Shown here one piece after another: positions 27,074-44,368 of a DNA stretch of 64,000 nt (within the stretch, counting starts at the first letter, position 1; each line of letters begins with the position of its first letter). The notes under the pieces are model-generated. The model saw only the letters and a program-made list of their open reading frames with translations, was not told where the DNA came from and did not search any database. Origin of the DNA: Opitutus sp. GAS368 (GTDB lineage: Bacteria; Verrucomicrobiota; Verrucomicrobiia; Opitutales; Opitutaceae); contig NZ_LT629735.1 in the NCBI RefSeq assembly GCF_900104925.1, forward strand, positions 2,078,291-2,142,290, read 5' to 3'. The translations under genes were made by a program, and so were the position numbers.

Positions 27074-28546
27074 TTACTTCACGAATGCACTAACGAATTC
27101 TTGGGCCGGCATCGCCTCGAGCTTGGTGCGGTCGGCGAAGAGGGACATGAGCTGCGCGGCCTTGGCCTTGCCGTAGTGGGCGGCGAAGGCGTCGCGCGCC
27201 TTCTGCTGGAGGACGGGGATTCCCTCGCTCCGGCGGCGGCGGTGGCCGATGGGGAAGTGGACCTCGATGCGGTCCGTCTTTGAGCCGTCCTGGAAAAAAA
27301 CCTGCACCGCATTGGCGATGGAGCGTTTCTCGGGGTCGAGGTAGTCCTTCGAGTAGGATTTGTCCTCGGCGACCTTCATCTTGGCGCGGAGGGCGTCAAT
27401 GCGCGGGTCGGCGGCGACCTTGTCCTCGTAGTGGTCCGCCGTGAGCGCGCCGAAGATCAGCCCGATGGCCGTCATGTATTGCAGGCAGTGGTCGCGGTCA
27501 GCCGGGTTGTTCAGCGGGCCGGACTTGTCGATGATGCGGATGGCCGACTCGTGGGTGGTCAATTCGACGCGCTCGATCGCGTCGAGGCGATCCTGGACAA
27601 GCGGGTGCAGCTTCATGGCACATTCGACAGCGGTCTGGGCGTGGAACTCGGCGGGGAAGGAGATCTTGAAGAGAATCTGCTCCATCACGTAGCTGCCGAG
27701 CGGACGGGCGAGCTTGAGGGGGTTGCCCTTGAAGGAGACATCCTGGAAGCCCCAGGTCTTCGCGGTGAGCACGGACGGGTAGCCCATCTCGTCCGTCAGC
27801 GCGATGAGCGCGAGGCGCACGGCGCGGCTGGTGGCGTCACCCGCGGCCCAGGACTTGCGCGAGCCGGTGTTGGGCGCGTGGCGGTAGGTGCGCAGCGCGG
27901 AGCCGTCGAGCCAGGCGTGGGAGATGGCGTTGATGACCTGGTCGCGCGTGCCGCCGAGCATCGCGGCGGTGACGGCGGTGGAGGCGATGCGGACCAGCAG
28001 CACGTGGTCGAGGCCGACGCGGTTGAAGGAATTCTCGAGTGCGAGCACGCCTTGGATCTCGTGCGCCTTGATCATGGCGGTGAGGACGTCCTTCACCGTG
28101 AGCGGGCGGGCGTTGAGCTTGGTGGCAAAGGCGGCGACGGGCGTGCCGGCGGCGGCGTTGCGCGAGAGCCAGTCGGCGGTCGCGAGGATCGCGCCGAGGT
28201 TGTCGGAGGGGTGGCCCCACTCGGCGGCGAGCCAGGTGTCGTTGAAATCGAGCCAGCGGACGATGGCGCCGATGTTGAAGGCGCCCTGCACCGGATCGAG
28301 CTCGTGGCTGGTGCCCGGGACGCGGGCGCCGTTCTTGATGGTGGTGCCGGGGACGACGGGGCCGAGGAGCTTGGTACAGGCCGGGTAGGCGAGGGCCATG
28401 ATGCCGCAGGCGAGCGTGTCGGCGAGGCACCAGCGGGCGGTGTCGTAGGCCTCGTCACTCGTGAGCTTCGCGCTGAGCGCGTAGTCGGCGAGGTCGGCGA
28501 GGAGCTTATCCGGGGCGGGGCGGACGTTGGAAATGGGGGAGGACAT
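27074..28546 (-). CDS. prpD: 2-Methylcitrate dehydratase (MmgE/PrpD family)
   Basis: 490 residues, the normal PrpD length. Family segments include [73 protein letters not shown] and [19 protein letters not shown]. It dehydrates 2-methylcitrate to 2-methyl-cis-aconitate in the methylcitrate cycle. It is the last gene of a prpB-prpC-prpD operon on the minus strand. A palindromic repeat separates it from prpC. Confidence 0.93.
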
Positions 28547-28559
28547 GGGTCTGAATCGT

Positions 28560-28627
28560 TCTCGTTCTCTTACTCGTAATCATTCTCTCATCTCGAGGAC
28601 GAGAAAGATTACGAGAACGAGAGCGAG
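28560..28627. repeat. Palindrome built of 6-nt CGAG-type units between prpC and prpD
   Basis: The left arm (from 28560) reads CGTTCT, CTTACT, CGTAAT, CATTCT-like hexamers. The right arm (28607-28627) is the complement, GATTACGAGAACGAGAGCGA. Sixteen bases of the right arm pair with the left arm allowing one gap. A transcript would form a hairpin in the middle of the operon. Confidence 0.75.
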
Positions 28628-28639
28628 TCGCCGGCTGAA

Positions 28640-29809
28640 TTAACCCCTTTGGGCGAGCGGCGGGAAGGGCCGGGGGTCGGGGCCGGTGTAGTTGGCGCCG
28701 GGGCGGATGATCTTGCCGTCGATGCGCTGCTCGATGATGTGCGCGGCCCAGCCGGCGGAGCGGGCCACGACGAACAGCGGCGTGAACATGGCGGTCGGCA
28801 CGCCCATCTCGTGGTAGGCCACGGCGCTGAACCAATCGAGGTTGGGGAACATCTTTTTCTCGTTCCCCATGAGCGTCTCGATCCGCTCGGCGATGTGGAA
28901 GAGGTTCACGTTGCCGGTCTCGGCGCAGAGGTGGTGGGCGATCTGCTTGATGATGGCGTTGCGCGGGTCGCTGACGGTGTAGACCGGGTGGCCGAAACCG
29001 ATGACGATCTCCTTGGCGGCAAGGCGTGCGCGGATGTCGGCCTCGGCCTGGTCGGGAGACTTGTAGCGCTGCTGGATCTCGTAGGCGACCTCGTTGGCGC
29101 CGCCGTGTTTGGGGCCGCGCAGCGCGCCGATGGCGCCGGTGATGGCCGAGTGAAAGTCCGTGGCCGTGCCGGCGATGACGCGGGCGGTGAAGGTCGAGGC
29201 GTTGAACTCATGCTCGGCGTAGAGGATGAGCGAGCGGTCGAGCGCACGGACGTGCGAGCCCGTCGGCGGGCGCTGGTGCAGCAGGTGCAGGAAATGCGCG
29301 GCGATGGAATCGTCCGCCATGTCGACCATGATGCGTTTGCCGTGGCGGGCGAAGTGGTGCCAGTAGAGCAGCATCGAGGGGAAGCAGGCGAGCAGCCGGT
29401 CGGCCAGGTCGCGGGCGCCCGGGGCGGAGGCGGCGCCGGCGCCGGCCGACGGGAGCTTCTCGTGCTCGAGGTTGCCGAGCATCGAACAGCCGGTGCGCAG
29501 GACGTCCATCGGGTGGGCGCTGGCCGGGATCTGCTCGAGCACGGCGCGCAGTGGCACGGGCAGGCCCCGGAGTTTCTTCAGTTTCTCGCGGTAGGCGTGC
29601 AGCTCGGCGGCGTTGGGCAGGCGCTCGTGGATGAGCAGGAAGGCGACTTCCTCGTAGGTGGCGTGCGCCGCCACGTCGGCGATGTCGTAGCCGCGGTAAT
29701 GGAGGTCGTTCCCGGTGTGGCCGACGGTGCAGATGGCGGTGTTGCCCGCGATGACGCCGGAGAGCGCGACGGATTTCTTGACCTTGGGGGCGGGGGCGTC
29801 GTCGGACAT
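28640..29809 (-). CDS. prpC: 2-Methylcitrate synthase/citrate synthase
   Basis: 389 residues, type II short-form citrate synthase. Catalytic His residues are in [16 protein letters not shown] and [11 protein letters not shown], and the catalytic Asp is in [13 protein letters not shown]. The N-terminal [20 protein letters not shown] segment is typical of the PrpC/GltA2 branch. It condenses propionyl-CoA with oxaloacetate. Location 6 bases after prpB and ahead of prpD supports PrpC rather than a general citrate synthase. Confidence 0.92.
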
Positions 29810-29815
29810 GGTGGA

Positions 29816-30646
29816 TTATTTCGGGGGTTGATAGCCAAGAATGTCGTAGAGATCGGCGCGGGTCTGCATCTGGCCGACGACGTTCTTCTGGGTGCCGTCC
29901 TGGCGGAGGGCGGCGTAAACCTCGCGCGAGGCGGCGGCGGCGGCGCGCGAGGCGGAAAGCGGGTAGAGCGCCATTGCGAGGCCCGCGGCGCGGAGTTCGT
30001 CGCGGGTGAAATAGGGCGTCTGGCCGAACTCGGTGAGGTTGGCCAGCACCGGGGCCGGCACCGCGGCGGTGAAGGCGCGGAAATCGTCGAGCGAGCGCAG
30101 CGCCTCGGCGAAGATCATGTCGGCCCCGGCGGCGACGTAGGCCTGGGCACGGGCGATGGTGGCCGGCACGCCCTCGTTGGCTGCGGCGTCCGTGCGCGCC
30201 ATGACGACGAAGTCGCGGTCAGGTTTGCCGGAAACGGCGGACTGCACACGCGTGACCATCTCGGCGGTGGACACAAGGTGCTTGCCCGGGAGATGACCGC
30301 AGAGCTTGGCCGGGACCTGGTCCTCGATATGCACGGCGGCGACGCCGGCCGCGGCCATTTCGCGGACGGCGCGGGCGGGATCGTCCCAGCCGGTGTCGAT
30401 GTCAACCAGCAGCGGCAGGTCCACCCGCTGGGCAATGCGGCGGGCGTCGATGAGCACATCGGCCAGCTCGGTCTGGCCGGTGTCGGGCAGGCCGTAGCTG
30501 TGGTTGGCCACGCCGGCTCCGGACAGATAGAGAGCCCGGAACCCCGCGCGTTGGGCCAGCAGGGCCGCATAGGCGTTGAGGGCCCCGGCGATCTGGAGCG
30601 GTTTTTCGGCCAGGAGGGCTTCGCGGAATTTTTTGCCGGGGGACAT
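29816..30646 (-). CDS. prpB: 2-Methylisocitrate lyase
   Basis: 276 residues, isocitrate lyase/PEP mutase superfamily. The catalytic Cys is in KLCGHLPGK, with substrate and Mg contacts in VDIDTGWDDP, HIEDQVPAK and ARTDAAANEG. It splits 2-methylisocitrate to pyruvate and succinate. It is the first gene of prpBCD. No prpE or specific aconitase is in this window. Confidence 0.94.
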   Translation of the reverse strand: MSPGKKFREALLAEKPLQIAGALNAYAALLAQRAGFRALYLSGAGVANHSYGLPDTGQTELADVLIDARRIAQRVDLPLLVDIDTGWDDPARAVREMAAAGVAAVHIEDQVPAKLCGHLPGKHLVSTAEMVTRVQSAVSGKPDRDFVVMARTDAAANEGVPATIARAQAYVAAGADMIFAEALRSLDDFRAFTAAVPAPVLANLTEFGQTPYFTRDELRAAGLAMALYPLSASRAAAAASREVYAALRQDGTQKNVVGQMQTRADLYDILGYQPPK

Positions 30647-30925: not shown

Positions 30926-31708
30926 ATGAAAGTAGTCATACTTTGCGGTGGCAAGGGCACCCGTCTGCGCGAGGAGACGGAATACCGGCCGAAGCCCATG
31001 GTGCCGATCGGCAACCGGCCGATCCTGTGGCACATCATGAAGACCTACGCGCACTACGGGCACAAAGACTTCGTCCTCTGCCTCGGCTACAAGGGGGACA
31101 TGATCAAGGACTACTTCCGCAATTACCTCTGGAACACCTGCGATGTCACGCTCTCCCTGGGCCAGAAGCCCGCCGCCCGGTTCCACCATGGCCACGGCGA
31201 GGAGGACTGGAGCGTGACCTTGGCGGACACCGGCGAAAACACCATGACCGCCCACCGCGTGAAGCAGATCCAGCGCTACATTCCCGAGGGCAAGCCGTTC
31301 ATGCTCACCTACGGCGACGGCCTGGCGACCATCGACATCAAGGCGCTGGTCGCAGCGCACAAAAAGTCCCGCAAGGTCTGCACGCTCTCGGCGGTGCACC
31401 CGGCGGGCCGCTTTGGGGCGCTCCGCATCGAGGCTGACGGCCGCATCCAGACCTTCAGCGAGAAGCCCCAGTTCGAGGACGCCCACGTCAACGGCGGCTA
31501 CATGGTCTGCGAACACCGCATGTTCGACTACCTGCCCGACGACCCCACCGTCATGCTCGAGCGGCAGCCGATGGAAAAACTGGTGCGCGACGGCCAGCTC
31601 AACGCCTACCCGCACGAGGGCTTCTGGCAGCCGATGGACACTTACCAGGAGACGCAGCACCTCAACTCCCTGTGGGCCGCGGGCAACGCGCCATGGAAAG
31701 TCTGGTGA
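30926..31708 (+). CDS. rfbF: Glucose-1-phosphate cytidylyltransferase
   Basis: 260 residues. It makes CDP-glucose from CTP and glucose-1-phosphate. Signatures are the nucleotidyltransferase loop ILCGGKGTRLREETEYRPKP, VPIGNRPILWHIMK, the metal-binding LTYGDGLATIDI, and AVHPAGRFGAL. This is the first step of CDP-3,6-dideoxyhexose synthesis. It starts the eight-gene operon and overlaps the next gene by 16 bases. The ATG at 30926 (MKVVILCGG) is the family start. Confidence 0.95.
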   Translation: MKVVILCGGKGTRLREETEYRPKPMVPIGNRPILWHIMKTYAHYGHKDFVLCLGYKGDMIKDYFRNYLWNTCDVTLSLGQKPAARFHHGHGEEDWSVTLADTGENTMTAHRVKQIQRYIPEGKPFMLTYGDGLATIDIKALVAAHKKSRKVCTLSAVHPAGRFGALRIEADGRIQTFSEKPQFEDAHVNGGYMVCEHRMFDYLPDDPTVMLERQPMEKLVRDGQLNAYPHEGFWQPMDTYQETQHLNSLWAAGNAPWKVW

Positions 31709-32844
31709 AAGGCGGCGCCGGCAATTCGCGGTCCTTTGGCGGGGCCTTCGCCGGCAAGCGCGTGCTCGTCACCGGCCACACCGGCTTCAAGGGCGCGTGG
31801 CTGTGCGAGTGGCTGCTCGCGCTCGGCGCGCATGTCACCGGGTTCGCCCTGCCGCCGGTCACGACGCCGGCGCTGTTCGACGAGCTCGGGCTCGCCGGCC
31901 GGATCAAGGACCGGCGCGGCGACGTTCGCGATCTCGCCGCCGTGCGGGCCGCCGTGGACGCGGCGCGGCCCGACTACGTCTTCCATCTCGCGGCGCAGCC
32001 GCTCGTGCGGCTGTCCTACGCGCAGCCGGTCGAGACCTATGCCACCAACATCATGGGCACGGTGCACCTGCTCGAGGCGGTCCGCCTCGCCGGCATCCGC
32101 TGTGCGGTCGTCGTGGTGACCACGGACAAGTGCTACGAGAACACGGAGCGCGCGCACGCCTACCGCGAGGAGGAGCCGATGGGCGGCCACGATCCCTACA
32201 GTTCCTCCAAGGGCGCGACCGAGCTCGTGGTGTCGGCCTACCGGCGTTCGTATTTTTCCGCGGCGGACTCTCCGGTGCGACTCGCCTCGGCGCGCGCCGG
32301 CAACGTCATCGGCGGCGGCGACTGGGCGCTGGACCGCATCGTGCCGGACTGCATCCGCAGCCTGCAGCGCGGCGAGGCGATCCCGGTGCGCAACCGCCAC
32401 GCCACGCGGCCGTGGCAGCATGTGCTGGAACCGCTCAGCGGCTACCTCTGGCTCGGGGCAGCATTGGCCAATCCTCAGGTTTCAGGTCTCAGGTTTCAGG
32501 TTTCTGATTACGCCTCCGCCTTCAACTTCGGCCCGTCGCCCGACGCGACCCGGCCGGTCGTCGCCCTCGTCGAGGAAGTGCTGAAGCACTGGCCGGGCCA
32601 ATGGGAGGACCGGACCGACCCCAAGGCCGTGCACGAGGCCACGCTGCTCAGCCTCGCCATCGACAAGGCCGCCCGCGTGCTCGGCTGGAAGCCGGTATGG
32701 GATTTTACTGCGACCATTGCGCAAACGGTCGGGTGGTATAGGCTGGTTTCCGCGGACGCGGCCGTCGCGGCCACGCACACCCGCCGGCAGATCGCGGCCT
32801 ACGAGACGGCGGCCCGCGCGCTCAACCTGACTTGGACCCAATGA
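31693..32844 (+). CDS. rfbG: CDP-glucose 4,6-dehydratase
   Basis: 383 residues, extended SDR. It has the NAD loop VTGHTGFKGAWL, TTDKCYEN, and the catalytic Tyr-Lys pair in YSSSKGATE. HATRPWQHVLEPLSGYLWLG is diagnostic for this enzyme. It converts CDP-glucose to CDP-4-keto-6-deoxyglucose. Between GYLWLGAALAN and YASAFNFGPSPD the gene carries a 7-nt tandem array (32475-32502) that adds a short extra loop. It overlaps rfbF by 16 and rfbH by 4 bases. Confidence 0.94.
   Translation: MESLVKGGAGNSRSFGGAFAGKRVLVTGHTGFKGAWLCEWLLALGAHVTGFALPPVTTPALFDELGLAGRIKDRRGDVRDLAAVRAAVDAARPDYVFHLAAQPLVRLSYAQPVETYATNIMGTVHLLEAVRLAGIRCAVVVVTTDKCYENTERAHAYREEEPMGGHDPYSSSKGATELVVSAYRRSYFSAADSPVRLASARAGNVIGGGDWALDRIVPDCIRSLQRGEAIPVRNRHATRPWQHVLEPLSGYLWLGAALANPQVSGLRFQVSDYASAFNFGPSPDATRPVVALVEEVLKHWPGQWEDRTDPKAVHEATLLSLAIDKAARVLGWKPVWDFTATIAQTVGWYRLVSADAAVAATHTRRQIAAYETAARALNLTWTQ
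32475..32502 (+). repeat. 7-nt tandem array inside rfbG
   Basis: Four heptamers: TCAGGTT, TCAGGTC, TCAGGTT, TCAGGTT, followed by a decayed fifth (TCTGATT). It encodes a surface-loop peptide about QVSGLRFQVS. Slippage by one unit would frameshift the dehydratase. Confidence 0.85.
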
Positions 32845-34358
32845 ACAAGACCCCGGCAGAACTGAAGGCGGAGATCCTGCGCCTGACCCGCGAATTCTCG
32901 GCGCTCACCCACGGCGCCAACCGGGCCGGCGCGGACAACACGGCGCCCTTTGTCGCCGGCCAGACGACGGTGCCCTACGCGGCGCGCGTCTTCAACGCCG
33001 ACGAGGTCGAGGCGGCCGTCGGCGCGACGCTCGACTTCTGGCTCACGCTCGGGCCCGAGGGCGCGGCCTTCGAGACGGAACTCGCGGCGCTGCTGGGCGT
33101 GAAGCACTCGCTCCTCGTCAACTCCGGCTCGTCCGCCAACCTGGTGGCCTTCTCCACGCTGACGACGCACAAGCTGCCGGCGGCGAAGCGCATCGCGCCC
33201 GGCGACGAGGTCATCACCGTGGCGGCCGGTTTCCCCACGACGGTGGCGCCCATCATCCAGGGCGGCGCGGTGCCGGTCTTCATCGACAACGATCCCGCCA
33301 CGGGCAACGCCCGCGTGGAGCAGCTCGAGGCGGCTTTCGCGCCCGGCAAGACCAAGGCCGTGATGATGGCGCACACGCTCGGCAATCCCTTCGACCTGGG
33401 CGCCGTGCTCGAATTCTGCCGGAAGCACGACCTGTGGCTGATCGAGGACAACTGCGACGCGCTCGGCTGCACCTATTCGCTGCCGGTGGCCCGCGCGAAC
33501 GCGCTCGGCTTCAAGGAAAACTCACCGGGGATTCCGGGTAACGGCACGCACATCACGCGTTTTACCGGGGCGTGGGGCGATATCTCGACGCAGTCGTTCT
33601 ATCCACCGCACCACCTGACGATGGGCGAGGGCGGGGCGGTGAGCATCGTCCACCGGCCGCCGCTCAAGACCTACGCCGAGAGTTTCCGCGACTGGGGCCG
33701 CGACTGCTGGTGCGCGAGCGGCAAGGACGATACCTGCGGCAAGCGCTTCCAGTGGCAACTCGGCGAGCTGCCGAAGGGGTATGATCACAAATACATCTAC
33801 AGCCACCTCGGCTACAACCTGAAGCCGCTCGACCCGCAGGCCGCCATCGGCCGCCAGCAGCTGAAGAAGCTGCCGGCGTTCATCGAGGCGCGGAAAAAAA
33901 ACTGGGAGACACTGCGCGCGGGGCTGGCCGACCTCGGCGAGTTTTTCGACTTCTCCCTGCCCACCCACGCCACCGCGTGGAATTCGCCGTCCTCCGTCGT
34001 CCGTTCTCCGTCCTCTGTTTTTTCCTGGGACGCCACGGGCTGCCGCACCGACTGTTCGTGGTTCGGTTTCATGCTCCGCGTGAAGGCCGGCGCGCCGTTT
34101 TCTCACACGGACCTCGGGCGGCACCTCGACGCGAAGAAGATCGGCAACCGCATGCTCTTTGGCGGCAACCTGCTCCGGCAACCGGCGTTCGTGCAGCTCA
34201 AGAAGGACCGGCCGGCGGCGCTCCGGGTCATCGGCGACCTGCCCGGCGCCGACGAGCTGATGCACCGGGCGCTGTTCCTCGGCACCTATCCCGGCCTCAC
34301 GCCCGCGATGCTGGCCTACGAGCTGGAGGTCATCCACGAGTTCGTGCGCTCCCGCTGA
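32841..34358 (+). CDS. rfbH: CDP-4-keto-6-deoxyglucose 3-dehydrase (E1, RfbH/DdhC)
   Basis: 505 residues, DegT/DnrJ/EryC1 fold. The Schiff-base Lys is replaced by His (His257) in FYPPHHLTMGEGG, the hallmark of PMP-dependent 3-dehydrases. The [2Fe-2S] motif is visible as DCWCASGKDDTCGKRF. It removes the C3 hydroxyl, giving the 3,6-dideoxy-4-keto sugar. The usual reductase partner (E3/DdhD) is not in the window. It is longer than usual because an insert near residues 380-405, encoded by a heptamer array and following bases, precedes SWFGFMLRV. The ATGA overlap with rfbG indicates coupling. Confidence 0.94.
   Translation: MNKTPAELKAEILRLTREFSALTHGANRAGADNTAPFVAGQTTVPYAARVFNADEVEAAVGATLDFWLTLGPEGAAFETELAALLGVKHSLLVNSGSSANLVAFSTLTTHKLPAAKRIAPGDEVITVAAGFPTTVAPIIQGGAVPVFIDNDPATGNARVEQLEAAFAPGKTKAVMMAHTLGNPFDLGAVLEFCRKHDLWLIEDNCDALGCTYSLPVARANALGFKENSPGIPGNGTHITRFTGAWGDISTQSFYPPHHLTMGEGGAVSIVHRPPLKTYAESFRDWGRDCWCASGKDDTCGKRFQWQLGELPKGYDHKYIYSHLGYNLKPLDPQAAIGRQQLKKLPAFIEARKKNWETLRAGLADLGEFFDFSLPTHATAWNSPSSVVRSPSSVFSWDATGCRTDCSWFGFMLRVKAGAPFSHTDLGRHLDAKKIGNRMLFGGNLLRQPAFVQLKKDRPAALRVIGDLPGADELMHRALFLGTYPGLTPAMLAYELEVIHEFVRSR
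33987..34021 (+). repeat. 7-nt tandem array inside rfbH
   Basis: Heptamers CCGTCCT, CCGTCGT, CCGTTCT, CCGTCCT, then decayed CTGTTTT. It encodes a Ser/Pro/Val-rich insert just before the conserved SWFGF segment. It has the same period and copy number as the array in rfbG, 1.5 kb upstream. Confidence 0.8.
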
Positions 34359-35419
34359 TGCCCGCTCCGCTGCCACCGCTGCCCGCCGAGGATCTCGACC
34401 ATGTGCTGGCCCACACCGGCCAGCTCTGGGTCGGCGCGCGTGGGGCGACGATCTTCGTCACGGGCGGCACGGGTTTTTTCGGCACCTGGCTGTTGGAGAG
34501 CTTCGTCCGCGCCAACGACACGCTGGGACTGGGCATGCGGGCGACCGTGCTGACGCGCGATCCCGCGGCCTTTGCCCGGAAGGCCCCGCACCTGGCGGGG
34601 CGCAGCGACCTGGCGTTTCATCAGGGCGAGCTGCGCACCTTTGCGTTTCCCGCCGGGCGCTTCACCCACCTGATCCACGCCGCCGCCGACACCGGCGTGT
34701 GGACGAAGAACGAGTCTCCGGCCGGGTTGATCGAACGCATCGCCACCGGCATGCGCCACCTGCTCGACTTTGCCGCCGGCGCGGGGATCAAAAATTTCCT
34801 GCACGTCAGCTCGGGCGCGGTCTACGGTCCGCAGCCGGCCGCACTGACCCACGTGCCCGAGGATTATCCGGGCATCACCGATCCGCTCCCGGCCGGCGCG
34901 GCTTGGGCCGAGGGCAAGCGGGTGGCCGAGCAGCTGTGCCTCGCGCACGCGGCCCAGCACGGCTATGCGCTTAAGATTGCCCGCTGTTTTGCCTTTGTCG
35001 GCCCGCATCTCGACGAGAATTACGCCATGGGCAATTTTATCGGCGATGCGCTGCATGGCCGGCCCATCCAGGTGAAGGGCGACGGCACGCCGCACCGCTC
35101 CTACCTTTATGCGTCCGATCTCGCGATCTGGCTGTGGACGCTGCTCTTTGCCGGGGCGCCCGGCCGGGCTTACAATGTCGGCTCGCCGGACGATCTGAGC
35201 ATCGCGGAAACGGCGCGGACCGTGGCCGCCGCCGCCGGCGAATCGCTGCCGGTGAAAATCGCCGAGACGCCCGCACCGGGCCGCCCGCTTTCCCGCTATG
35301 TCCCGTCGGTTGAGCGGGCTGAAATCGAACTCGGTTTGCGGGCCTGGATCCCGCTGAATGAGGCGGTCCGCAAAACCCTCGCCTGGCAGCGCAGCGCCAA
35401 GGCAGTCCTTTCCTCATGA
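34358..35419 (+). CDS. NAD(P)-dependent SDR epimerase/reductase lacking the catalytic Tyr
   Basis: 353 residues. The Rossmann loop is VTGGTGFFGTWLL. HVSSGAVYGPQP and ARCFAFVGPHLD are typical of extended SDRs acting on nucleotide sugars. The YxxxK site reads WAEGK, so Trp183 replaces the Tyr while Lys187 remains. The sister protein at 37346-38440 has Tyr at the same residue number. The two are paralogues (both begin with GARG/LRGQ-type leader and GTGFxGTWLLE). The role could be C4-keto reduction or sugar binding only. It overlaps rfbH by one base. Confidence 0.88.
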   Translation: MPAPLPPLPAEDLDHVLAHTGQLWVGARGATIFVTGGTGFFGTWLLESFVRANDTLGLGMRATVLTRDPAAFARKAPHLAGRSDLAFHQGELRTFAFPAGRFTHLIHAAADTGVWTKNESPAGLIERIATGMRHLLDFAAGAGIKNFLHVSSGAVYGPQPAALTHVPEDYPGITDPLPAGAAWAEGKRVAEQLCLAHAAQHGYALKIARCFAFVGPHLDENYAMGNFIGDALHGRPIQVKGDGTPHRSYLYASDLAIWLWTLLFAGAPGRAYNVGSPDDLSIAETARTVAAAAGESLPVKIAETPAPGRPLSRYVPSVERAEIELGLRAWIPLNEAVRKTLAWQRSAKAVLSS

Positions 35420-36291
35420 GCGCAAAAAAACTCGGCGTCGCCATCCTGGGCACCGGCAACATCGGCACCGACCTGATGATGAAGGTGCTGCGCTCGCCGG
35501 TGCTCGAGTGCCGCCTGTTTGCCGGCCGCAACCTGTCCTCGCCGGGCATGACGAAGGCCAGCCTGCTCAATGTGCCAGTCTCGGCGAAGGGCTTCCAAAG
35601 CATCGTCGACCTGAAGGACGAGCTCGCCCTGGTGTTTGATGCCACGAGCGCCATGGACCACCAGAAGCACGCGCCCGTGCTGAAGGAGCTCGGCCTGGTC
35701 GCGGTTGACCTCACTCCGGCCAAGGTCGGGCGGATGTGCGTGCCGGCGGTGAACCTCGCCGAGTGTCTGCACGAACCCAACGTCAACATGATCACCTGCG
35801 GCGGCCAGGCCTCGATCCCGCTGGCCTACGCGATCAAGTCGGCGAATCCCGGTGTGGAATACCTCGAGGCCGTCTCGAGCATCGCCTCGCGCAGCGCCGG
35901 GCCGGCCACGCGCATCAACCTCGACGAATACCTCCAGACCACGGAGCAGGGACTCCAGCTGTTCGGCGGCTGCGCCCGAACCAAGGCGATCCTGAACCTG
36001 AACCCCGCCCAGCCCTGCGTGCACATGCAGACCACCGTGATGGCCAGGATCGCGAAACCGGATCTTGAGCGCACGCGCGCCGCGGTCGCGGAGATGGTCG
36101 CCCGGATCAAGGCCTACATCCCCGGCTACCAGCTGGTCCTCGAACCGATGCTCGAGAACGGCCGGCTCGTGGCCATGGTGCGCGTGGACGGGCTCGGCGA
36201 CTACCTGCCGCGCTACGCCGGCAACCTTGACATCATCAACTGCGCCGCGATTGCTTTTGCCGAAGCCTACGCCCGGCAACGGACCGCTTAA
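35416..36291 (+). CDS. Acylating acetaldehyde dehydrogenase (DmpF/MhpF-like)
   Basis: 291 residues. It shows the NAD loop AILGTGNIGTDLMMKV, the catalytic Cys in NMITCGGQASIPLAYAI, and the C-terminal NLDIINCAAIAFAE. In aromatic catabolism this enzyme forms a channelled complex with 4-hydroxy-2-oxovalerate aldolase and turns acetaldehyde into acetyl-CoA. Its partner gene follows 11 bases later. No ring-cleavage gene is present; the pair sits within a CDP-sugar operon, overlapping the preceding SDR gene by 4 bases. Confidence 0.92.
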   Translation: MSAKKLGVAILGTGNIGTDLMMKVLRSPVLECRLFAGRNLSSPGMTKASLLNVPVSAKGFQSIVDLKDELALVFDATSAMDHQKHAPVLKELGLVAVDLTPAKVGRMCVPAVNLAECLHEPNVNMITCGGQASIPLAYAIKSANPGVEYLEAVSSIASRSAGPATRINLDEYLQTTEQGLQLFGGCARTKAILNLNPAQPCVHMQTTVMARIAKPDLERTRAAVAEMVARIKAYIPGYQLVLEPMLENGRLVAMVRVDGLGDYLPRYAGNLDIINCAAIAFAEAYARQRTA

Positions 36292-36302
36292 ACCTGATCC
36301 CC

Positions 36303-37349
36303 ATGTCTGACGGCAAACCCACCATCACGGTCTGCGACGCGACGCTGCGCGACGGTTCGCACGCCTACAGCCACCAGATCACGCTCGAGCAGGTGAAGGC
36401 CTACGCGACGGCCGCGGAAGCGGCCGGTTTCAATTTCCTCGAGGTCGGCCACGGCAACGGGCTCGGCGCCTCCTCGCTGCAGGTCGGGGAAAGCCTCGTG
36501 CCGGAGGGCGAGATGCTGCGCGCCGCCAAGGCCTGCCTGCAGCGCACCAAGCTGAGCGTCCATGTCATTCCCGGCTTTGCCACCATCAACCGTGAGATCG
36601 CGCAGGCGATGGAGGCGGGCGTGGAGCTGTTTCGCGTCGGCTGCCACTGCACCGAGGCCGACATCACGCAGCGGCACATCGGCCACGTGCGCTCCGCGGG
36701 CCGCGAGGCCTGGGGCGTGCTCATGATGAGCCACATGGTTTCCGCCGATGTCCTGCTGGAGGAGACCAAGAAGATGCAGTCCTACGGCGCCCAGGGCATC
36801 GTGCTCATGGACTCGGCCGGCGCTTATTTCCCGGCCGACGTGACCGCCAAGGTCGGCCTGCTGGCCGCGAAGCTCGAAGTGCCGGTGGGTTTCCATGCGC
36901 ACAACAATCTCGGGCTCGCCGTCGCCAACTCGATCGCCGCGCTCGAGGCGGGCGCCCGCATTGTCGACGGCACGGGTCGCGGCTTCGGCGCCGGGGCCGG
37001 CAACGCGCCGATCGAGCTGATCGCGGCGGTGCTGATCAAGCAGGGCTACACCACCAGCCTCGACCTCTACAGGGCGCTCGATGCCGGCGACCTCGCGGCG
37101 AAGCTCTTCGCCGGCTCGCTGCCCGAGTCCAACGGCGTGACCATCGTCAGCGGCATGACGGGTGTATTCTCCGGTTTCTCCAAGCCCGTGCAGCGCGCCG
37201 CGAAGCAGTTCGGCGTCGACGGGCGCGACATCTTCTTCGAGCTCGGCAAGCGCAAGGTCGTCGGCGGCCAGGAGGACCTGATCCTCGAGGTGGCCGACCA
37301 ACTGGCGAAGCACAGCAAGGACGCGGGCCAAACCCCGCCAGTGCCATGA
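36303..37349 (+). CDS. 4-Hydroxy-2-oxovalerate aldolase (DmpG/MhpE-like)
   Basis: 348 residues, including the C-terminal domain that contacts the dehydrogenase. Active-site segments are DATLRDGSHAYSHQ (Arg-Asp), VGFHAHNNLGLAVANS (metal His) and DGTGRGFGAGAGNAPIELI. It splits 4-hydroxy-2-oxoacids to pyruvate plus an aldehyde, and the reaction is reversible. In this operon it may build or trim a pyruvate-derived chain. It overlaps the next SDR gene by 4 bases. Confidence 0.93.
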   Translation: MSDGKPTITVCDATLRDGSHAYSHQITLEQVKAYATAAEAAGFNFLEVGHGNGLGASSLQVGESLVPEGEMLRAAKACLQRTKLSVHVIPGFATINREIAQAMEAGVELFRVGCHCTEADITQRHIGHVRSAGREAWGVLMMSHMVSADVLLEETKKMQSYGAQGIVLMDSAGAYFPADVTAKVGLLAAKLEVPVGFHAHNNLGLAVANSIAALEAGARIVDGTGRGFGAGAGNAPIELIAAVLIKQGYTTSLDLYRALDAGDLAAKLFAGSLPESNGVTIVSGMTGVFSGFSKPVQRAAKQFGVDGRDIFFELGKRKVVGGQEDLILEVADQLAKHSKDAGQTPPVP

Positions 37350-38440
37350 ACCAGGCCATCGCCCTCGTCCGCGCCGACGCCGAGGCCGTGCTGTCGGGCC
37401 GCCTCGAGCGCCTGGCCCCGTTGCGTGGGCAGCACCTCTTCATCACCGGTGGCACCGGTTTCCTCGGCACGTGGCTGCTCGAACTCGCGAAGGTCCTGAA
37501 CGAGCGGCACCAGTTCGGGCTGCAGGTCACCGTCTTCAGCCGCAACACCCAGGCCTTCGCCGCGCGCTGGCCGCATCTCGGGAAGGAGAAGTGGGTGACC
37601 CTGCAGGACGGCGACATCCGCTATTTCACGGAGCTGCCGCGCGACGTGCGCTACGTCATCCACGCCGCCGCGCTCACCGACCGCCGCGTGTTCGCCTCAC
37701 ACCCGAGCGCGGTGGCGGAAACCAACACGGTGGGCACGCTGCGGATCCTCCGCGCCGCCACGCTGCTCGAGGACCTGCAGAAGGTCGTGCTCCTGAGCTC
37801 GGGCCTCGTCTACGGCGGCCAGCCGTGGGACCTGCCGCGCATCAACGAGGATTTCGGCGGCGTGTTGAAGTGCAACGACGTGAACGCGGTCTACCCCGAG
37901 TCCAAGCGCCTCGCCGAGGTGATCGCGCAGTGCGCGATCAGCGAGAGCAAGCTGCCGGTGGTGACGCTGCGGCCGTTCGCCTTTGTCGGGCCCTATCAGT
38001 CGCTGCAGCTGCCGTGGGCGGTGACGGACTTCATCCGCGACAGCTTCCGCGGCGGACCGATCCGGCTCATGGGCGACGGGGCGACGGTGCGCAGCATCAT
38101 GTATTACAGCGATTTTGCCTGCGGGGTGCTGCTGGCGCTCGCGGCCGGCCGGCCGCGCACGACCTATAATCTCGGCAGCGACGAGCCGGTCGACCTGCTC
38201 ACGCTGGCGCAGAAGATCACCCGGTATTTCTCGCCGGTGCCCGAGATCAAGCTGCGCCTTGGTCAGGCCGGCCACGACCGCAACCGGCTGGTGCCGGACA
38301 CGTCACGGATGGCGGCGGATCTCGGCTTCAATGTCACTGTGCCGCTGGATGCCGCCCTCCAGAAAACCATCGAGTGGCACCGGCTCACCGGGGGCTGGCA
38401 GAGTGTCCCGCCGTTTTCCAATGCAACGAAAAGTCAGTGA
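37346..38440 (+). CDS. NAD(P)-dependent SDR epimerase/dehydratase
   Basis: 364 residues. The Rossmann loop is ITGGTGFLGTWLLELAK, with LLSSGLVYGGQP (catalytic Ser region) and the intact Tyr183-Lys187 pair in YPESK. LRPFAFVGPYQS and GDGATVRSIMYYSDFA are typical of nucleotide-sugar SDRs. It is a paralogue of the protein at 34358-35419, but it alone has the catalytic Tyr, so it may act after branching, for example reducing a side-chain ketone as YerF does. It overlaps the ThDP enzyme gene by 20 bases. Confidence 0.9.
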   Translation: MNQAIALVRADAEAVLSGRLERLAPLRGQHLFITGGTGFLGTWLLELAKVLNERHQFGLQVTVFSRNTQAFAARWPHLGKEKWVTLQDGDIRYFTELPRDVRYVIHAAALTDRRVFASHPSAVAETNTVGTLRILRAATLLEDLQKVVLLSSGLVYGGQPWDLPRINEDFGGVLKCNDVNAVYPESKRLAEVIAQCAISESKLPVVTLRPFAFVGPYQSLQLPWAVTDFIRDSFRGGPIRLMGDGATVRSIMYYSDFACGVLLALAAGRPRTTYNLGSDEPVDLLTLAQKITRYFSPVPEIKLRLGQAGHDRNRLVPDTSRMAADLGFNVTVPLDAALQKTIEWHRLTGGWQSVPPFSNATKSQ

Positions 38441-40259
38441 CCTGATCGCGGAGTTTTTTGAGCGGAAGGGCGTGAAGCACGCCTTCGGCATCATTGGCTC
38501 GGCCAACGCCCACATCTTCGATTCGATCTTCTACCAGTCGAAGATCGAGCTGATCTGCCCGCACCACGAGCAGGCCTGCACCATGGCGATCCAGAGCTAC
38601 TGGAAGGTCAGCGGCCAGCCGACGTTCGCCTTGGTCACCGCCGGCGCCGGCTCGAGCAACGCGATCACCGGTGTGCTCTCGGCGTGGGCCGATTCCATCC
38701 CCTGCCTGATCATCTCCGGCCAGGAAAACGCGCGCTACGTCACGCCCGGCTTCGATCGCCGGATGTATGGCATCCAGGGTTACGACAGCCCGTTTGCCGT
38801 CAGCAAGATGACGAAATACGGCGCGCGGGTGATGACGCCGGAGCAAACGTTGTATGAACTGGAGAAGGCGTGGCACATCGCCACGACCGGCCGGCCGGGC
38901 CCGTGCTGGATCGATTTTCCGCAGAGCGTGCAGTCGGCGATGGTGAAGGAGAGCACGCTGGCGCACTATACACCCGAAGCGCCGCCAACGGCCGTCGCCC
39001 CGCTGGTGGGCGAGGCTTTGCAACGCGAGGTGGTGGCGACGCTGACACGCCTGCGCGGCGCGAAGCGACCGCTGCTCTGGCTCGGCGTGGGCATTCGCAT
39101 GGCCGGCGCGCAGAAAGAATTGAAGGCATTTGTCGAGGCGCTCGGCGTGCCCGTGCTGGTGACCTGGTCGGCGATCGACCTGCTGCCCGGCGGACATCCG
39201 CTGGTGATGGGCAGCGCGGGCGTCTACGGCCAGCGCGCGGCGAACTTCATTCTCCAGAGTTGCGACTGCCTGGTGACCATCGGGACCCGGCTCGCGATCC
39301 CGCAGGTCGGGTATGACATCAGCGAACTGGCGCGGGCGGCCAAGGACATCACGGTCGTCGACATCGACCCGACCGAGCTGAAGAAATACCCGGAGCGGTT
39401 CAACCATCCGGTGCGCGCCGATGCAGGCGGCTTCATCCGCGAGCTGCAGCGACAGGCGGCGACCGCCCCGCTCCCGGCGCCGAAAGAGTGGCTCGCTTGG
39501 TGCGGCGAGGTGCGCGCGCGCTTCCCGTGGATCGGGCCCGAGCACGCCGACAAGGACGGGTTTATCAATTCCTACAAGTTCATGGACCGGCTGGTCGGCC
39601 AGCTCAAGCCCGACCAGGTGGTCGTGACGGACATGGGCACGGCGCTGCTCAGCGGCCACCAGGCGCTGCGAATCACGCCGCCGCAGCGGCTGATCACGTC
39701 GCAGGGCCTCGGCGAGATGGGCTTCGGCCTGCCCGGCGCCATCGGCGCCTCCTTCGCGCGCAACCGCGGCGAGGTGCTCTGCCTGAACTGCGACGGCGGC
39801 ATGATGATGAACCTGCAGGAGCTGCAGACCGTCGCGCACCACCAGCTCCCGATCAAACTCATCATCTTCAACAACGACGGCTACCTGATGATCAAACACA
39901 CGCAGAAAGCGGTGCTCAAGGGCCGCTACGCCGGCACGGACGCCAAGTCCGGCGTATCGTGTCCGGATTTCAGCAAGCTGGCGACAGCGTTCGGCATGCC
40001 GGCCTTCCGGATCCGCACGTGGGAGGATTTCGACCGCGAGATGCCGAAGGTGCTGGCCGCGGCCGGCCCGGTGATCTGCGAGGTGTTCATGGCGCCCGAG
40101 CAGTTCTTCCACCCCAAGCTGGGCATCTCGGTGCAGCCCGACGGCACGCTCATCTCGCCGCCGCTCGAGGACCTGTCGCCCTTCCTGCCGCGCGAGACGC
40201 TAAGGGCCAACCTGCAGGGGCCGCTGCACCCGAAGTCGGAGAAGATCCAGCCGGGTTGA
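38421..40259 (+). CDS. ThDP-dependent acetolactate synthase-like enzyme (YerE-like)
   Basis: 612 residues. The ThDP-activating Glu is in PHHEQACTMAI, and the Mg/ThDP motif is LNCDGGMMMNLQELQT ending IFNNDGY. The middle domain fits the FAD-binding family fold. Context argues against valine/isoleucine synthesis: no small regulatory subunit is present and the gene ends a CDP-dideoxysugar operon. YerE in yersiniose A synthesis is a ThDP flavoenzyme that transfers the two-carbon unit of pyruvate to C4 of CDP-3,6-dideoxy-4-hexulose. A similar role is inferred here. Confidence 0.85.
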   Translation: MQRKVSDLIAEFFERKGVKHAFGIIGSANAHIFDSIFYQSKIELICPHHEQACTMAIQSYWKVSGQPTFALVTAGAGSSNAITGVLSAWADSIPCLIISGQENARYVTPGFDRRMYGIQGYDSPFAVSKMTKYGARVMTPEQTLYELEKAWHIATTGRPGPCWIDFPQSVQSAMVKESTLAHYTPEAPPTAVAPLVGEALQREVVATLTRLRGAKRPLLWLGVGIRMAGAQKELKAFVEALGVPVLVTWSAIDLLPGGHPLVMGSAGVYGQRAANFILQSCDCLVTIGTRLAIPQVGYDISELARAAKDITVVDIDPTELKKYPERFNHPVRADAGGFIRELQRQAATAPLPAPKEWLAWCGEVRARFPWIGPEHADKDGFINSYKFMDRLVGQLKPDQVVVTDMGTALLSGHQALRITPPQRLITSQGLGEMGFGLPGAIGASFARNRGEVLCLNCDGGMMMNLQELQTVAHHQLPIKLIIFNNDGYLMIKHTQKAVLKGRYAGTDAKSGVSCPDFSKLATAFGMPAFRIRTWEDFDREMPKVLAAAGPVICEVFMAPEQFFHPKLGISVQPDGTLISPPLEDLSPFLPRETLRANLQGPLHPKSEKIQPG

Positions 40260-40274: not shown

Positions 40275-41204
40275 TCAGAAGTTGAGGCGTTCCCGCTCCA
40301 CGACGAGCGGGCGCTTGGTCACCTTGGTGTGGATGGCGCCGATGTATTCGCCCAGCACACCGATGAAGAAAAGCTGCACCGAGCCGATGAAGAACAGGCC
40401 CACCACCACGGGCGCGGTGCCGAGGGTGAAGCTGTCCCAGTTCAGCAGCTTGTAGACGAAATAACCCGCGCTCACCCCGAAGCAGAACGTTGCCATCAGG
40501 AAGCCGACCATCGTGGCGAGGCGCAGCGGCACCTTGGTGTGGTTGGTGAAGCCGAGCATCGCGATGTCGAAGAGCGTGTAGAGGTTGTTCTTGGTGAACC
40601 CGCGGGCGCGGCGGGGCTGCACGAACGGCACGCGGGCGACGGGGTAGCCGATCTCGGAGATCTGCCCGCGCAGGTAGGGGTAGGGGTCCTCGCTGGCGCG
40701 GAGATACTCGACCAGCGCGCGATCGTAGAGGCCGAAGCCGGTGAAGTTGAGGAGCAGGTCGACGTCCGCCAGCCGCGCCACCAGCTTGTAGTAGACCTTG
40801 CGGACGAGGAAGAACACGGGCGATTCCTTGCTCTCGTTTTTCACGGCCGCCACGGCCTTCCAGCCCTGTTCCCAGAGGGGGATGAACTGCTCGATCAGCT
40901 CCGGCGGGTCCTGCAGGTCGGAGGCGAGGAAGATCACGGCGTCGCCCGGCGCCTGCAGGATGCCGTGGTAGGGCGAGCGGATGTGGCCGAAGTTGCGGGC
41001 GTTGAGGATGACCTTCAGGCGGGGGTCCGCGGCCGCGAGGCGGCGCAGGATTTCCGGCGAGCGATCGGTCGAGCAGTTGTCGATGATGAGGCAGTTCCAG
41101 TCATACTGCGGAAACTTGGCGGCCACGGCCCAGACCCGGCGCAGGAGTTCCTCGAGGTTGCCCTCCTCGTTGTAGCAGCCGCTGACGACCGTGATTTTTT
41201 TCAT
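40275..41204 (-). CDS. GT2 glycosyltransferase, polyprenol-phosphate type with two C-terminal helices
   Basis: 309 residues. The GT-A domain shows VVSGCYNEEGNLEELLRR, IIDNCSTDRSPEIL and the metal-binding region ASDLQDPPELIEQF. Two membrane helices follow near residues 230-290. Proteins of this type (GtrB/ArnC/Dpm1-like) load a sugar on undecaprenyl phosphate for use by GT-C enzymes outside. Its start overlaps the stop of the upstream GT-C gene by 4 bases. It is convergent with the deoxysugar operon, with a 15-base gap. Confidence 0.92.
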   Translation of the reverse strand: MKKITVVSGCYNEEGNLEELLRRVWAVAAKFPQYDWNCLIIDNCSTDRSPEILRRLAAADPRLKVILNARNFGHIRSPYHGILQAPGDAVIFLASDLQDPPELIEQFIPLWEQGWKAVAAVKNESKESPVFFLVRKVYYKLVARLADVDLLLNFTGFGLYDRALVEYLRASEDPYPYLRGQISEIGYPVARVPFVQPRRARGFTKNNLYTLFDIAMLGFTNHTKVPLRLATMVGFLMATFCFGVSAGYFVYKLLNWDSFTLGTAPVVVGLFFIGSVQLFFIGVLGEYIGAIHTKVTKRPLVVERERLNF

Positions 41205-42973
41205 GGCTTGGGTTTTTCCTTGGCCGGTCCGCCGCCGGCCTCGCCGCCGTAGACCTTGAGGCCCATGGCGTCGGCCAGCTCCTGCGGGACGGCGATTTCC
41301 AATGCTTCGTCCTCCACGTATAGCACCGGGAGGTAGCGGGCGCGTCGATAGAAATCATTGACCGCCTCCCAGCGGGCCTTGTGCAGGAACATCAGCGGAC
41401 GGACGCTCTGGATGTAATTCCAGCGTTTCTGGTTCATCGGCTGGTCGGCCAGGCCGATCCACGTGACGTAATAGGGCGTGGGATTGGTGCGGTTCTTCGT
41501 GAAGCACAGGAACAGGGCGTCATTGCCGATCAGGGCGCTGGGGATGCCCGGCTGGTGGCGCTCGATCTGTTCCAACACGGCCGTGATCCGGTGGAAGCTT
41601 TGCGCCTGCACAGCGGTGACCTGGATGCCGCGCAGCACGGCCGGGTGCTCGAGCGTCACGAGGGGCCGGGCCAGGGACTGCCGGGCGGACTGGATCTTGG
41701 CCCAGAGGGAAGGGACGAAGGCGGCCGTCAGGACCAGCGTGGTCACGGGGACCGACCAACGCGCGCTCCGCCAGAAAATATACACGGCCAGACCGAAGGC
41801 CGGGGCCAGGGCCCACAAGATATGCCACGAATCCGGCACCGGGTAATATTGCAGCAGGGAGCCGGCCGCCTGCGCCGCCAGCGCGGCGACCAGGTAATAC
41901 TCGGTGGTTTTGGGCGTTTCCGTCTGCCGGAATACCAACCCCAGGCAAAGGAGCGCCTGACCCAGCACCACCACGGGCAGCAGCGCGGTCCAGCCGCCGT
42001 CCCGCAGGGCCAGCAGGCCGAGCACCCGCTCATGCTGCCAGGCCAGCACGCCGGCGAGGACCAGGTAATAGAGCCCCTGGCGGCGCGGCGTGAGGACCAG
42101 CCCGGCGCGTGGCAGCAGGCCGGGTGCGAAAAGGGCGAGCAGGAGGACCAGCAGGCCGGCGCCGGCGCCGGGATGCACGAAGAAGGAGACGAACAGGCCC
42201 CAGCTGACATTCTCGCTGCCCTGCGCCCATTTGCTGGGCCAGATAAAATTCTGATACCACCACTCGGGCAGGGCGCCCGTGAGGGCCACGCTGCCCAAAA
42301 GGAGAACGTTCACCGCTACGAAGCCGGCGAGGGTCGCGACGACAATGGCGCGGCGCGTGGCGTTGACGGGCGTCCAGCCCGCCCATTGCAGCGCCAGCCA
42401 GCTCGCCCCCGCGCAGCCGGTCATGATGACCCCGACCGGCTGGCGGCACCAAAACGCGCAGGCGCAGGCCGCCCCCAGGATTGCCCCCCAGCGAACCGCG
42501 TGCGCGTCCCGGATGATCTGGGTGAGGGCAAAGAGCCCGAGGCCCTGGAACATCAGCGCATAAACCGACGACCAGGGCAGCAGCATCCAATATTGGTCGA
42601 GCCAGTTTTTCTCGTAACCCGGGATGAACAGGGCGAACAGGCCGCAGGCCAGCACCGTGAGCGGCCGCGGCAGGATCAGGCGCCAGGTGGCATAGAGGAA
42701 AAACAGCGCCAGCGCATAGGCCGCCACCGTCATGAGCCGGAGCGCCAGCAGGGTGGGTTGAAACCAGAGCATCGCCGCCTGTAGGTAGGTGGTCAGCGCG
42801 CCGTATTGCGTGAAGGTGTCCCGGAACAGCACCTGACCTGACAGCACGTCGAGTGCGGGCTTGAGCATGATGCCGTCATGGTGCTGGTCCACCCCCTGGC
42901 GGGCCAGAGGCCACAGCAGGACCACCACGAGCACGGCGAGCAGCCCGGCGACGAGGGCGTCGCGCCTAGGCAT
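41201..42973 (-). CDS. Polytopic GT-C-like membrane protein
   Basis: 590 residues with about 12 hydrophobic segments. The first extracytoplasmic loop holds QGVDQHHDGIMLKPALDVL and FRDTFTQYG. A similar acidic loop (HDDEGY, later VFTQYG) occurs in the protein at 56906-59104. This loop position matches the catalytic acidic motif of GT-C enzymes that use lipid-linked sugars. A soluble C-terminal domain of about 160 residues follows. Acceptor and donor are unknown. It is translationally coupled to the GT2 gene downstream. Confidence 0.75.
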   Translation of the reverse strand: MPRRDALVAGLLAVLVVVLLWPLARQGVDQHHDGIMLKPALDVLSGQVLFRDTFTQYGALTTYLQAAMLWFQPTLLALRLMTVAAYALALFFLYATWRLILPRPLTVLACGLFALFIPGYEKNWLDQYWMLLPWSSVYALMFQGLGLFALTQIIRDAHAVRWGAILGAACACAFWCRQPVGVIMTGCAGASWLALQWAGWTPVNATRRAIVVATLAGFVAVNVLLLGSVALTGALPEWWYQNFIWPSKWAQGSENVSWGLFVSFFVHPGAGAGLLVLLLALFAPGLLPRAGLVLTPRRQGLYYLVLAGVLAWQHERVLGLLALRDGGWTALLPVVVLGQALLCLGLVFRQTETPKTTEYYLVAALAAQAAGSLLQYYPVPDSWHILWALAPAFGLAVYIFWRSARWSVPVTTLVLTAAFVPSLWAKIQSARQSLARPLVTLEHPAVLRGIQVTAVQAQSFHRITAVLEQIERHQPGIPSALIGNDALFLCFTKNRTNPTPYYVTWIGLADQPMNQKRWNYIQSVRPLMFLHKARWEAVNDFYRRARYLPVLYVEDEALEIAVPQELADAMGLKVYGGEAGGGPAKEKPKP

Positions 42974-43034
42974 GGCTGGGGGCGGGACGGGAAGAGGGCA
43001 GTCCGGGACGGTGCATCGGGTCGCTTTATGGGGG

Positions 43035-43069
43035 GAGGAAAAGCAAAGGGGAAGAGGGAAAAGGAAAGC
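43035..43069. repeat. Intergenic 7-nt purine tandem array
   Basis: Five heptamers: GAGGAAA, AGCAAAG, GGGAAGA, GGGAAAA, GGAAAGC. It lies in the 127-base gap between two GT genes on the minus strand. Same period and size as the arrays found inside three genes. Confidence 0.6.
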
Positions 43070-43100
43070 GCGCGACGCGGCCCCGCCATTCGCGCGGCGA

Positions 43101-44294: not shown

Positions 44295-44368
44295 CGTCCA
44301 GCGACCGCGCGAGACGAGGCCGGGGCTTGGTTGGGCGGAAGGGGTCAAGAAGGACCTGGTTGGTGAAA

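Follow-up and report, generated by a model that had tools for sequence, protein, structure and literature searches.

Why should an acylating acetaldehyde dehydrogenase and a pyruvate aldolase of the DmpF and DmpG families, best known from catechol meta-cleavage, be encoded in one operon with the enzymes of a cytidine diphosphate (CDP)-linked deoxysugar? The question is raised by positions 30926-40259 of a 64,000-nucleotide stretch of the Opitutus sp. GAS368 chromosome (contig NZ_LT629735.1, positions 2,078,291 to 2,142,290; the whole stretch is referred to below as the window), where genes follow each other on the plus strand in the order rfbF, rfbG, rfbH, SDR1, dmpF-like, dmpG-like, SDR2 and a thiamine diphosphate (ThDP)-dependent lyase gene, SDR denoting a short-chain dehydrogenase/reductase. 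We propose that the operon probably constitutes a near self-contained pathway for a CDP-activated, C4-branched ten-carbon 3,6-dideoxyhexose of the erwiniose type, with DmpF and DmpG as suppliers of the branch donor. Gene identity, linkage, residues and phylogeny were all observed directly in the loci described here.

Linkage of the DmpF-DmpG pair to sugar loci

The ThDP lyase of the operon (38421-40259, plus strand) carries the motif NCDGG, that is, CDG replacing GDG. Loci with CDG-type ThDP genes were collected in one scan with an alignment of three sequences (A1), and the best 80 of 92 loci were considered. DmpF is found near the ThDP gene in 75 of these 80 loci and DmpG likewise in 75, and no more than 2.5 kb separate the ThDP match from DmpF or DmpG in those loci; where both are present, they are on the same strand and at most 60 bp apart in 57 loci out of 74. 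An RfbH match of any strength is seen in 66/80 loci, and RfbF, RfbG and RfbH each exceed 120 bits in 59/80, many of the contigs being short. A match to SDR2 is situated within 250 bp of DmpG in 69/80. Among the five loci lacking DmpG, two (L075, L137) are cut by contig ends, and three (L120, L134, L135) are local absences.

By their titles, the CDG loci come from approximately 12 phyla (Verrucomicrobiota, Bacteroidota, Pseudomonadota, Omnitrophota, Spirochaetota, Bdellovibrionota, Hydrogenedentota, Walliibacteriota, Gemmatimonadota, Actinomycetota, Armatimonadota and Acidobacteriota), although many are metagenome bins and single assignments may err. The preliminary description of this DNA had proposed a search for genomes in which DmpF and DmpG homologues adjoin rfbFGH and a YerE homologue; such clusters do recur, and the pair is conserved with the sugar genes. 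Since these genes are found together again in other phyla, the eight-gene arrangement is not a matter of chance, and the linkage supports the earlier assignment of the carbon-carbon bond enzymes to CDP-3,6-dideoxyhexose synthesis.

As a contrast set, we used the in-phylum relatives of the ThDP gene (45 besides its own locus, 40 fetched). Of the 40, 36 have no DmpG, and all of these are of the GDG type; two are of the CDG type, both with DmpG, and two are GDG loci with DmpG. Hence 36 of the 38 in-phylum GDG loci lack DmpG (some contigs are short). In the reverse count, a match to the communication domain of DmpG was obtained in 10 of 387 genomes of the phylum. Five of the ten are beside a ThDP gene (the window, L032, L033, L047 and L054), as are L165 and, with a partial ThDP match at a contig end, L164; the rest are L166, which is divergent and has no DmpF, and two weak matches.

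Some of the collected loci contain other enzymes near the ThDP gene. In L068 (10815-11639) an HMGL-like lyase, perhaps another keto-acid supplier, adjoins a GDG-type ThDP gene and has homologues in the in-phylum loci L057 and L066. In L046 (11341-12414), L051 (11505-12590) and L058, a gene resembling 3-dehydroquinate synthase lies near the ThDP gene and may indicate a carbocyclic branched sugar. Approximately 1.8 kb before the CDG gene, three Pseudomonas loci (L113, L116, L121) encode a further ThDP enzyme, distantly related to that of the window (30-32% identity).

Residues and phylogeny of the aldolase and the lyase

The DmpF-like protein (35416-36291, plus strand; TIGR03215, 371.8 bits, above the cut-off) has relatives of known structure in 7z3s, 4jn6, 4lrs and 1nvm, and its Cys128, which we take to be the catalytic cysteine, is present in 90/90 aligned DmpF sequences. 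The DmpG-like aldolase (36303-37349, plus strand; TIGR03217, 355.6 bits, above the cut-off) retains the communication domain (PF07836, 87.9 bits). Its residues R16, D17, H20, H198 and H200 (window numbering), presumably the catalytic Arg, the metal-binding Asp, His and His and the base His, are found in 75/75 aligned DmpGs of CDG clusters (73 from the scan plus L032 and L033, L032 being the same locus as L098).

Two other positions differ from the catabolic enzymes. The window DmpG has His87 for BphI Leu87 and Phe289 for BphI Tyr290, the catabolic-type pair thus being absent, and the same His and Phe occur in 75/75 DmpGs of CDG clusters; BphI numbering was mapped by alignment to 1nvm (DmpG) and by the published use of DmpG as a model of BphI. 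We then tabulated 119 DmpG sequences passing length and score limits (L089 and L149, both CDG loci with DmpG, and L193 were excluded). At positions 52, 87 and 289 the 82 sequences from sugar contexts read NHF (n = 78), NFV (n = 2), NFF (n = 1) or NYF (n = 1), and none has either Leu87 or the Tyr corresponding to BphI 290. By contrast, DLY is found in 25 of the 27 sequences from loci with aromatic-degradation markers, these 25 being the ones with both Leu87 and Tyr289. The ten rows without context read DLY (n = 6), ALY, DIY, NFF and VFH (n = 1 each), that is, eight with Leu or Ile87 and Tyr289 plus L153 and L166. Nine dmpG copies from plasmid records, one of them (L162) without aromatic markers, all have Leu87 and Tyr289.

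The same tendency was observed in a draw of 369 genomes that was not selected by the ThDP gene and was taken from the class to which a Duganella genome belongs. It gave 30 DmpG matches, of which 27 were fetched (the centre genome and two weak matches were left aside) and 26 loci were aligned. In 24 of the 26, Leu or Ile87 is combined with Tyr289, and there are no RfbFGH or ThDP matches; the remaining two (L187, L190) have His87 and Phe289, and both, and only these, are situated beside RfbFGH and a ThDP gene. In the DmpG tree, built by a quick method with a midpoint root, all 82 sugar-context rows fall into one group (Shimodaira-Hasegawa-like approximate likelihood ratio test support 99), and the other 25 aromatic-context rows, apart from the actinomycete copies described next, lie outside it.

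Three actinomycete DmpFG copies with Phe289, two on Streptomyces plasmids (L153, L154) and one from Embleya (L152), form a case of their own. L153 and L154 are annotated beside genes for ketoacyl-acyl carrier protein synthase III and acyl carrier protein, and are possibly biosynthetic, in secondary metabolism; L152 carries no annotation.

The two altered positions are those that set stereochemistry in BphI. Wild-type BphI is strictly 4S, and its double variants L87N/Y290F and L87W/Y290F accept the 4R acid but not its 4S counterpart (PMC3962088, PMC4012138); this published switch from 4S to 4R is the model for our prediction. The DmpGs of sugar loci alter both positions, 87 becoming polar His or aromatic Phe or Tyr, and 290 becoming Phe or Val. 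Because His87 and Phe289 replace Leu87 and Tyr290, the window DmpG is predicted to be 4R-selective and, by the same analogy, the sugar-locus DmpGs are predicted to be naturally 4R-specific pyruvate aldolases with a dedicated role in sugar synthesis. A hint in the same direction comes from the name of caryophyllose, 3,6-dideoxy-4-C-(D-altro-1,3,4,5-tetrahydroxyhexyl) (PMC5706390). By an unchecked Fischer derivation made by hand, its 3'-hydroxyl would have the same sense as the 4R acid. For erwiniose, whose full name we believe to be that of a D-gulo-octose, an equally unchecked derivation by hand gives R at the corresponding carbon.

The ThDP protein scores far below the cut-off of the acetolactate synthase family (TIGR00118, 336.8 bits against 538.35), and was rejected as a plain acetolactate synthase. 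Among solved structures, the best match is JanthE (8rph, 779.3 bits; the runner-up has 249.8), which, together with the CDG motif, bears out its preliminary assignment as a YerE-like enzyme. In the literature this motif is called uncommon, or unique to JanthE (PMC12247030, PMC12188165), and the JanthE structure contains flavin adenine dinucleotide (PMC12188165). A close relative of JanthE is encoded in Duganella L107, whose ThDP protein matches JanthE with 1186.6 bits over 610 residues and has DmpF and DmpG downstream. Five pocket positions of JanthE (PMC12188165) were mapped through L107, with a two-residue offset chosen because all five letters then agree; in the window protein they are I, Y, P, Y and K. 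At the first three of them, the 36 GDG relatives without DmpG mostly have D (n = 26), L, I or M (n = 26) and R (n = 26), and the D and R are absent also from the GDG loci with DmpG (L047, L054, L165); the residue table omits L089, L123 and L146 by length. In the ThDP tree (85 rows, covering about half of the 80 CDG loci) the CDG type forms one group (support 100), with L134 and L135 at its edge. The GDG loci with DmpG are placed elsewhere, and therefore the DmpFG module appears to have become associated with ThDP lyases on more than one occasion.

The proposed pathway and its alternatives

We suggest the following course of synthesis. RfbF, RfbG and RfbH, with an E3 reductase encoded elsewhere, would produce CDP-4-keto-3,6-dideoxyglucose. 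DmpF would reduce acetyl-coenzyme A (acetyl-CoA) to acetaldehyde with reduced nicotinamide adenine dinucleotide and hand it on through the channel between the two proteins to DmpG, where it would be condensed with pyruvate to 4-hydroxy-2-oxopentanoate, known as a substrate of DmpG, in the predicted 4R form, opposite to that of BphI. The ThDP lyase would then decarboxylate this acid and move the four-carbon 3-hydroxybutanoyl unit onto the C4 ketone, the irreversible decarboxylation pulling the otherwise unfavourable DmpF step, and SDR2 (alternatively SDR1) would reduce the branch ketone to leave a 1,3-dihydroxybutyl side chain. The direction of flux, the actual donor, the stereochemistry in this organism, the order in which the reductases act and the sugar that results are predictions, and the donor range is taken from published relatives. 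Since ErwE and JanthE both accept 4-hydroxy-2-oxopentanoate (PMC12247030, PMC12188165), which is the acid that DmpF and DmpG would make in reverse, we infer that the pair is a donor-supply module. For JanthE, whose physiological substrates are described as unidentified, acceptance of this acid (4-hydroxy-2-oxovalerate) is reported with benzaldehyde as the partner (PMC12247030, PMC12188165). Erwiniose is a ten-carbon branched sugar (PMC8657720), which would fit six carbons plus four. The branched sugar of the preliminary description is the likely product, as predicted from the genes.

Several points weigh against this reading. The step from acetyl-CoA to acetaldehyde is uphill, and no O-antigen cluster was seen around the operon. 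NCDGGMM was the search pattern, hence the count of CDG loci is given by construction (the DmpFG linkage is not), and the sequences are related (L032 = L098), 82/82 therefore not representing 82 independent events. CDG-type ThDP genes without DmpFG exist (L120, L134, L135), as do GDG-type genes with DmpG (L047, L054, L165). In L134 (7265-9135) and L135 (7899-9769) the CDG gene is preceded by a split transketolase-like pair in the absence of DmpFG, as though a different module had taken over donor supply; in L112 a more distant pair occurs together with DmpFG. The GDG contrast set is imperfect, RfbG and RfbH being found in 23 of its 36 loci and three of them (L056, L061, L067) being shorter than 7 kb, and SDR2-like matches occur in 8/36 GDG loci without DmpG. 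Two DmpGs with aromatic markers, L152 (NLF) and L154 (NFF), do not have the catabolic pair, and the actinomycete plasmid copies L152, L153 and L154 fall inside the sugar branch of the tree. As to stereochemistry, Y290F alone causes stereocontrol of BphI to be lost, not inverted, and the position-87 variants described are Asn, Trp and Ala, not His, the 4R prediction being one by analogy (PMC3962088, PMC4012138). Finally, JanthE also uses pyruvate (PMC12247030).

The last point leads to a yersiniose-like alternative, in which the ThDP enzyme would use pyruvate to make a two-carbon branch, and DmpF and DmpG would merely remove acetaldehyde formed in a side reaction. YerE uses pyruvate, as JanthE can (PMC12247030), and the many in-phylum GDG loci with RfbG and RfbH, without DmpFG, indicate that pyruvate-type pathways probably exist. 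However, scavenging of acetaldehyde, which had been offered as the role of the dehydrogenase, requires DmpF and not DmpG, yet both are kept equally often; it leaves unexplained a conserved aldolase whose stereocontrol residues are changed while its catalytic residues are kept, and it was rejected on these grounds. The rarity of DmpG in GDG loci and the three pocket positions at which the window lyase departs from the letters most common among the GDG lyases without DmpG also argue against the two-carbon branch, which we consider unlikely. If, instead, the pair acted on a longer acyl-CoA, propionyl-CoA would give propionaldehyde, 4-hydroxy-2-oxohexanoate and an eleven-carbon sugar. BphI L87A favours propionaldehyde (PMC3962088, PMC4012138), ErwE accepts 4-hydroxy-2-oxohexanoate (PMC12247030), and PrpD-, citrate-synthase- and PrpB-like genes adjoin the operon divergently; but His87 is bulkier than Ala, and the ten carbons of erwiniose fit acetaldehyde (PMC8657720), which makes this variant distinctly improbable.

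In the preliminary description the aldolase was also thought to add pyruvate straight to an aldehyde on the nucleotide sugar. BphI does tolerate aldehydes of several lengths (PMC3962088, PMC4012138), but no gene of the operon evidently oxidises or cleaves a sugar to an aldehyde, and retention of PF07836 and of the partner DmpF suggests a small channelled aldehyde; we regard such a reaction as very improbable. That a catabolic pair is here by accident, for which only the usual meta-cleavage role of the two families speaks, is hardly credible: the linkage is repeated across phyla, the tree branch is separate, DmpG is a single copy in the source genome, and the dmpE hydratase family gave no match there, extradiol dioxygenase matches being weak and below the cut-off. 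Linkage, residues and tree thus led us to reject a catabolic role.

For the donor-supply reading, it is an evenly balanced question how far it extends. About a dozen phyla may carry a biosynthetic, reverse-running DmpF-DmpG branch, naturally inverted to 4R, that feeds the C4 branches made by ThDP sugar-branching lyases, and swapping of the supply module (DmpFG, the transketolase pair, an HMGL-type lyase, or none for pyruvate) may vary the branch. The operon suggests that a channelled complex known from textbooks as degradative has been recruited into biosynthesis. It provides a concrete candidate for the donor that JanthE-type lyases use physiologically, and a gene-level rule separating four-carbon from two-carbon branching. 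It also points to a family of probably 4R-selective pyruvate aldolases, a property engineered in BphI (PMC3962088, PMC4012138). If this is true, the surface sugars of many uncultured bacteria become predictable.

The operon in its genome and among known systems

Probable gene starts, all ATG, were read from the sequence, and NCBIfam scores were judged against curated cut-offs. The earlier layout of eight same-strand genes separated by overlaps or at most 11 bases agrees with the frames and family matches: the sole intergenic gap, 11 bases, is that between DmpF and DmpG, and all other junctions overlap. RfbF (30926-31708; TIGR02623, 332.6 bits) is the glucose-1-phosphate cytidylyltransferase forming CDP-glucose, RfbG (31693-32844; TIGR02622, 460.1 bits) is the CDP-glucose 4,6-dehydratase, and RfbH (32841-34358; NF011936, 618.4 bits) is an E1-type CDP-4-keto-6-deoxyglucose 3-dehydrase dependent on pyridoxal phosphate and [2Fe-2S], all three scores being above the cut-offs and all three genes on the plus strand, as are those of both SDRs. 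In RfbH (numbering from codon 32844) a PPHH motif with His256 and the cysteines 204, 288, 290 and 298 are kept in 90/90 aligned sequences; we take the His, replacing the aminotransferase Lys, to be the E1 feature and the cysteines to be the [2Fe-2S] ligands.

The E3 reductase had been noted as missing, which is right for the operon, none of its eight genes encoding one. A search of the whole genome with one E3-like query from a related cluster gave two partial matches (50.3 and 21.5 bits), neither of which lies in the window. E3-like matches with Fer2, FAD and NAD domains are present in 24 of the 80 related CDG loci, none of the 24 titled Verrucomicrobiota; E3 queries also match three aromatic or unassigned loci. 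SDR1 (34358-35419; PF01370, 126.4 bits), an extended SDR and probable nucleotide-sugar ketoreductase or epimerase, and SDR2 (37346-38440; PF01370, 107.6 bits), likewise extended, are paralogues with 32% identity, and relatives of SDR1 are also found in GDG-type clusters without DmpFG.

The source genome is one 4.15-Mb contig. A foreign GC content was rejected, the value being 0.675 for the operon and 0.674 for the remaining window. A promoter scan gave one promoter-like site against 0.6 expected by chance, which is no evidence of a promoter. By record title, the ThDP and DmpG proteins have their closest relatives in Opitutus sp. and other Opitutaceae (Verrucomicrobiota); neither the ThDP protein (at E 1e-120) nor DmpG found a match in four further genomes of the same genus in the draw, and therefore the operon is patchily distributed. 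Divergent from it, the PrpD-, citrate-synthase- and phosphoenolpyruvate mutase/isocitrate lyase (PrpB)-like genes at 27074-30646 are probably a methylcitrate cycle set. On its other side, the opposite strand carries at 40275-44546, convergently with the operon, genes for a family 2 glycosyltransferase and for two large proteins that gave no Pfam match, and two tandem pilin-like genes (45776-46123 and 46285-46632) have nearly identical translations.

Branching of the YerE-like kind from a hydroxy keto acid is known chemistry; what seems to be new, as far as the literature searches show, is the DmpFG module dedicated to donor supply, together with the spread of this module and the changes at the stereocontrol positions. 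Among the papers listed in those searches, which do not establish absence from print, we recognised none describing the ErwE gene cluster or DmpFG in sugar loci; one paper sharing both terms (PMC8696081) describes, in its excerpt, a phenol degradation locus. The word "aldolase" was not found in the main text of the Mycobacterium marinum papers searched. Caryophyllose synthesis, with the lyase MMAR_2332, which is similar to ErwE in donor preference (PMC12247030), resembles the proposed pathway in that the deoxy position in the branch is as expected of a pyruvate aldol product, but the branch, 4-C-(1,3,4,5-tetrahydroxyhexyl), has six carbons and hence implies a different aldehyde (PMC5706390). 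Yersiniose A synthesis by YerE and YerF shares the CDP-3,6-dideoxy-4-keto acceptor and the YerE-type chemistry; in contrast, its donor is pyruvate, the branch has two carbons, and DmpFG is unnamed in the excerpted description of the pathway (PMC12247030). DmpFG and BphIJ belong to the same two families as the window pair and share its catalytic residues and communication domain, but they act in the catabolic direction, BphI being 4S-specific with Leu87 and Tyr290, whereas the window pair is sugar-linked and has His87 and Phe289. JanthE of Janthinobacterium sp. HH01 is like the window lyase in its CDG motif and in similar pocket residues, and is its best solved match; its gene cluster was compared through the close Duganella relative only. 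The nearest parallel in chemistry is ErwE of Pectobacterium atrosepticum, where a YerE-like ThDP lyase combines a 4-hydroxy-2-oxo acid with CDP-4-keto-3,6-dideoxyglucose (PMC12247030). The ten-carbon branched product erwiniose (PMC8657720) is of the kind predicted for the window operon, although for ErwE the GDG motif is implied by the review, which calls CDG unique to JanthE (PMC12247030), while the window enzyme has CDG.

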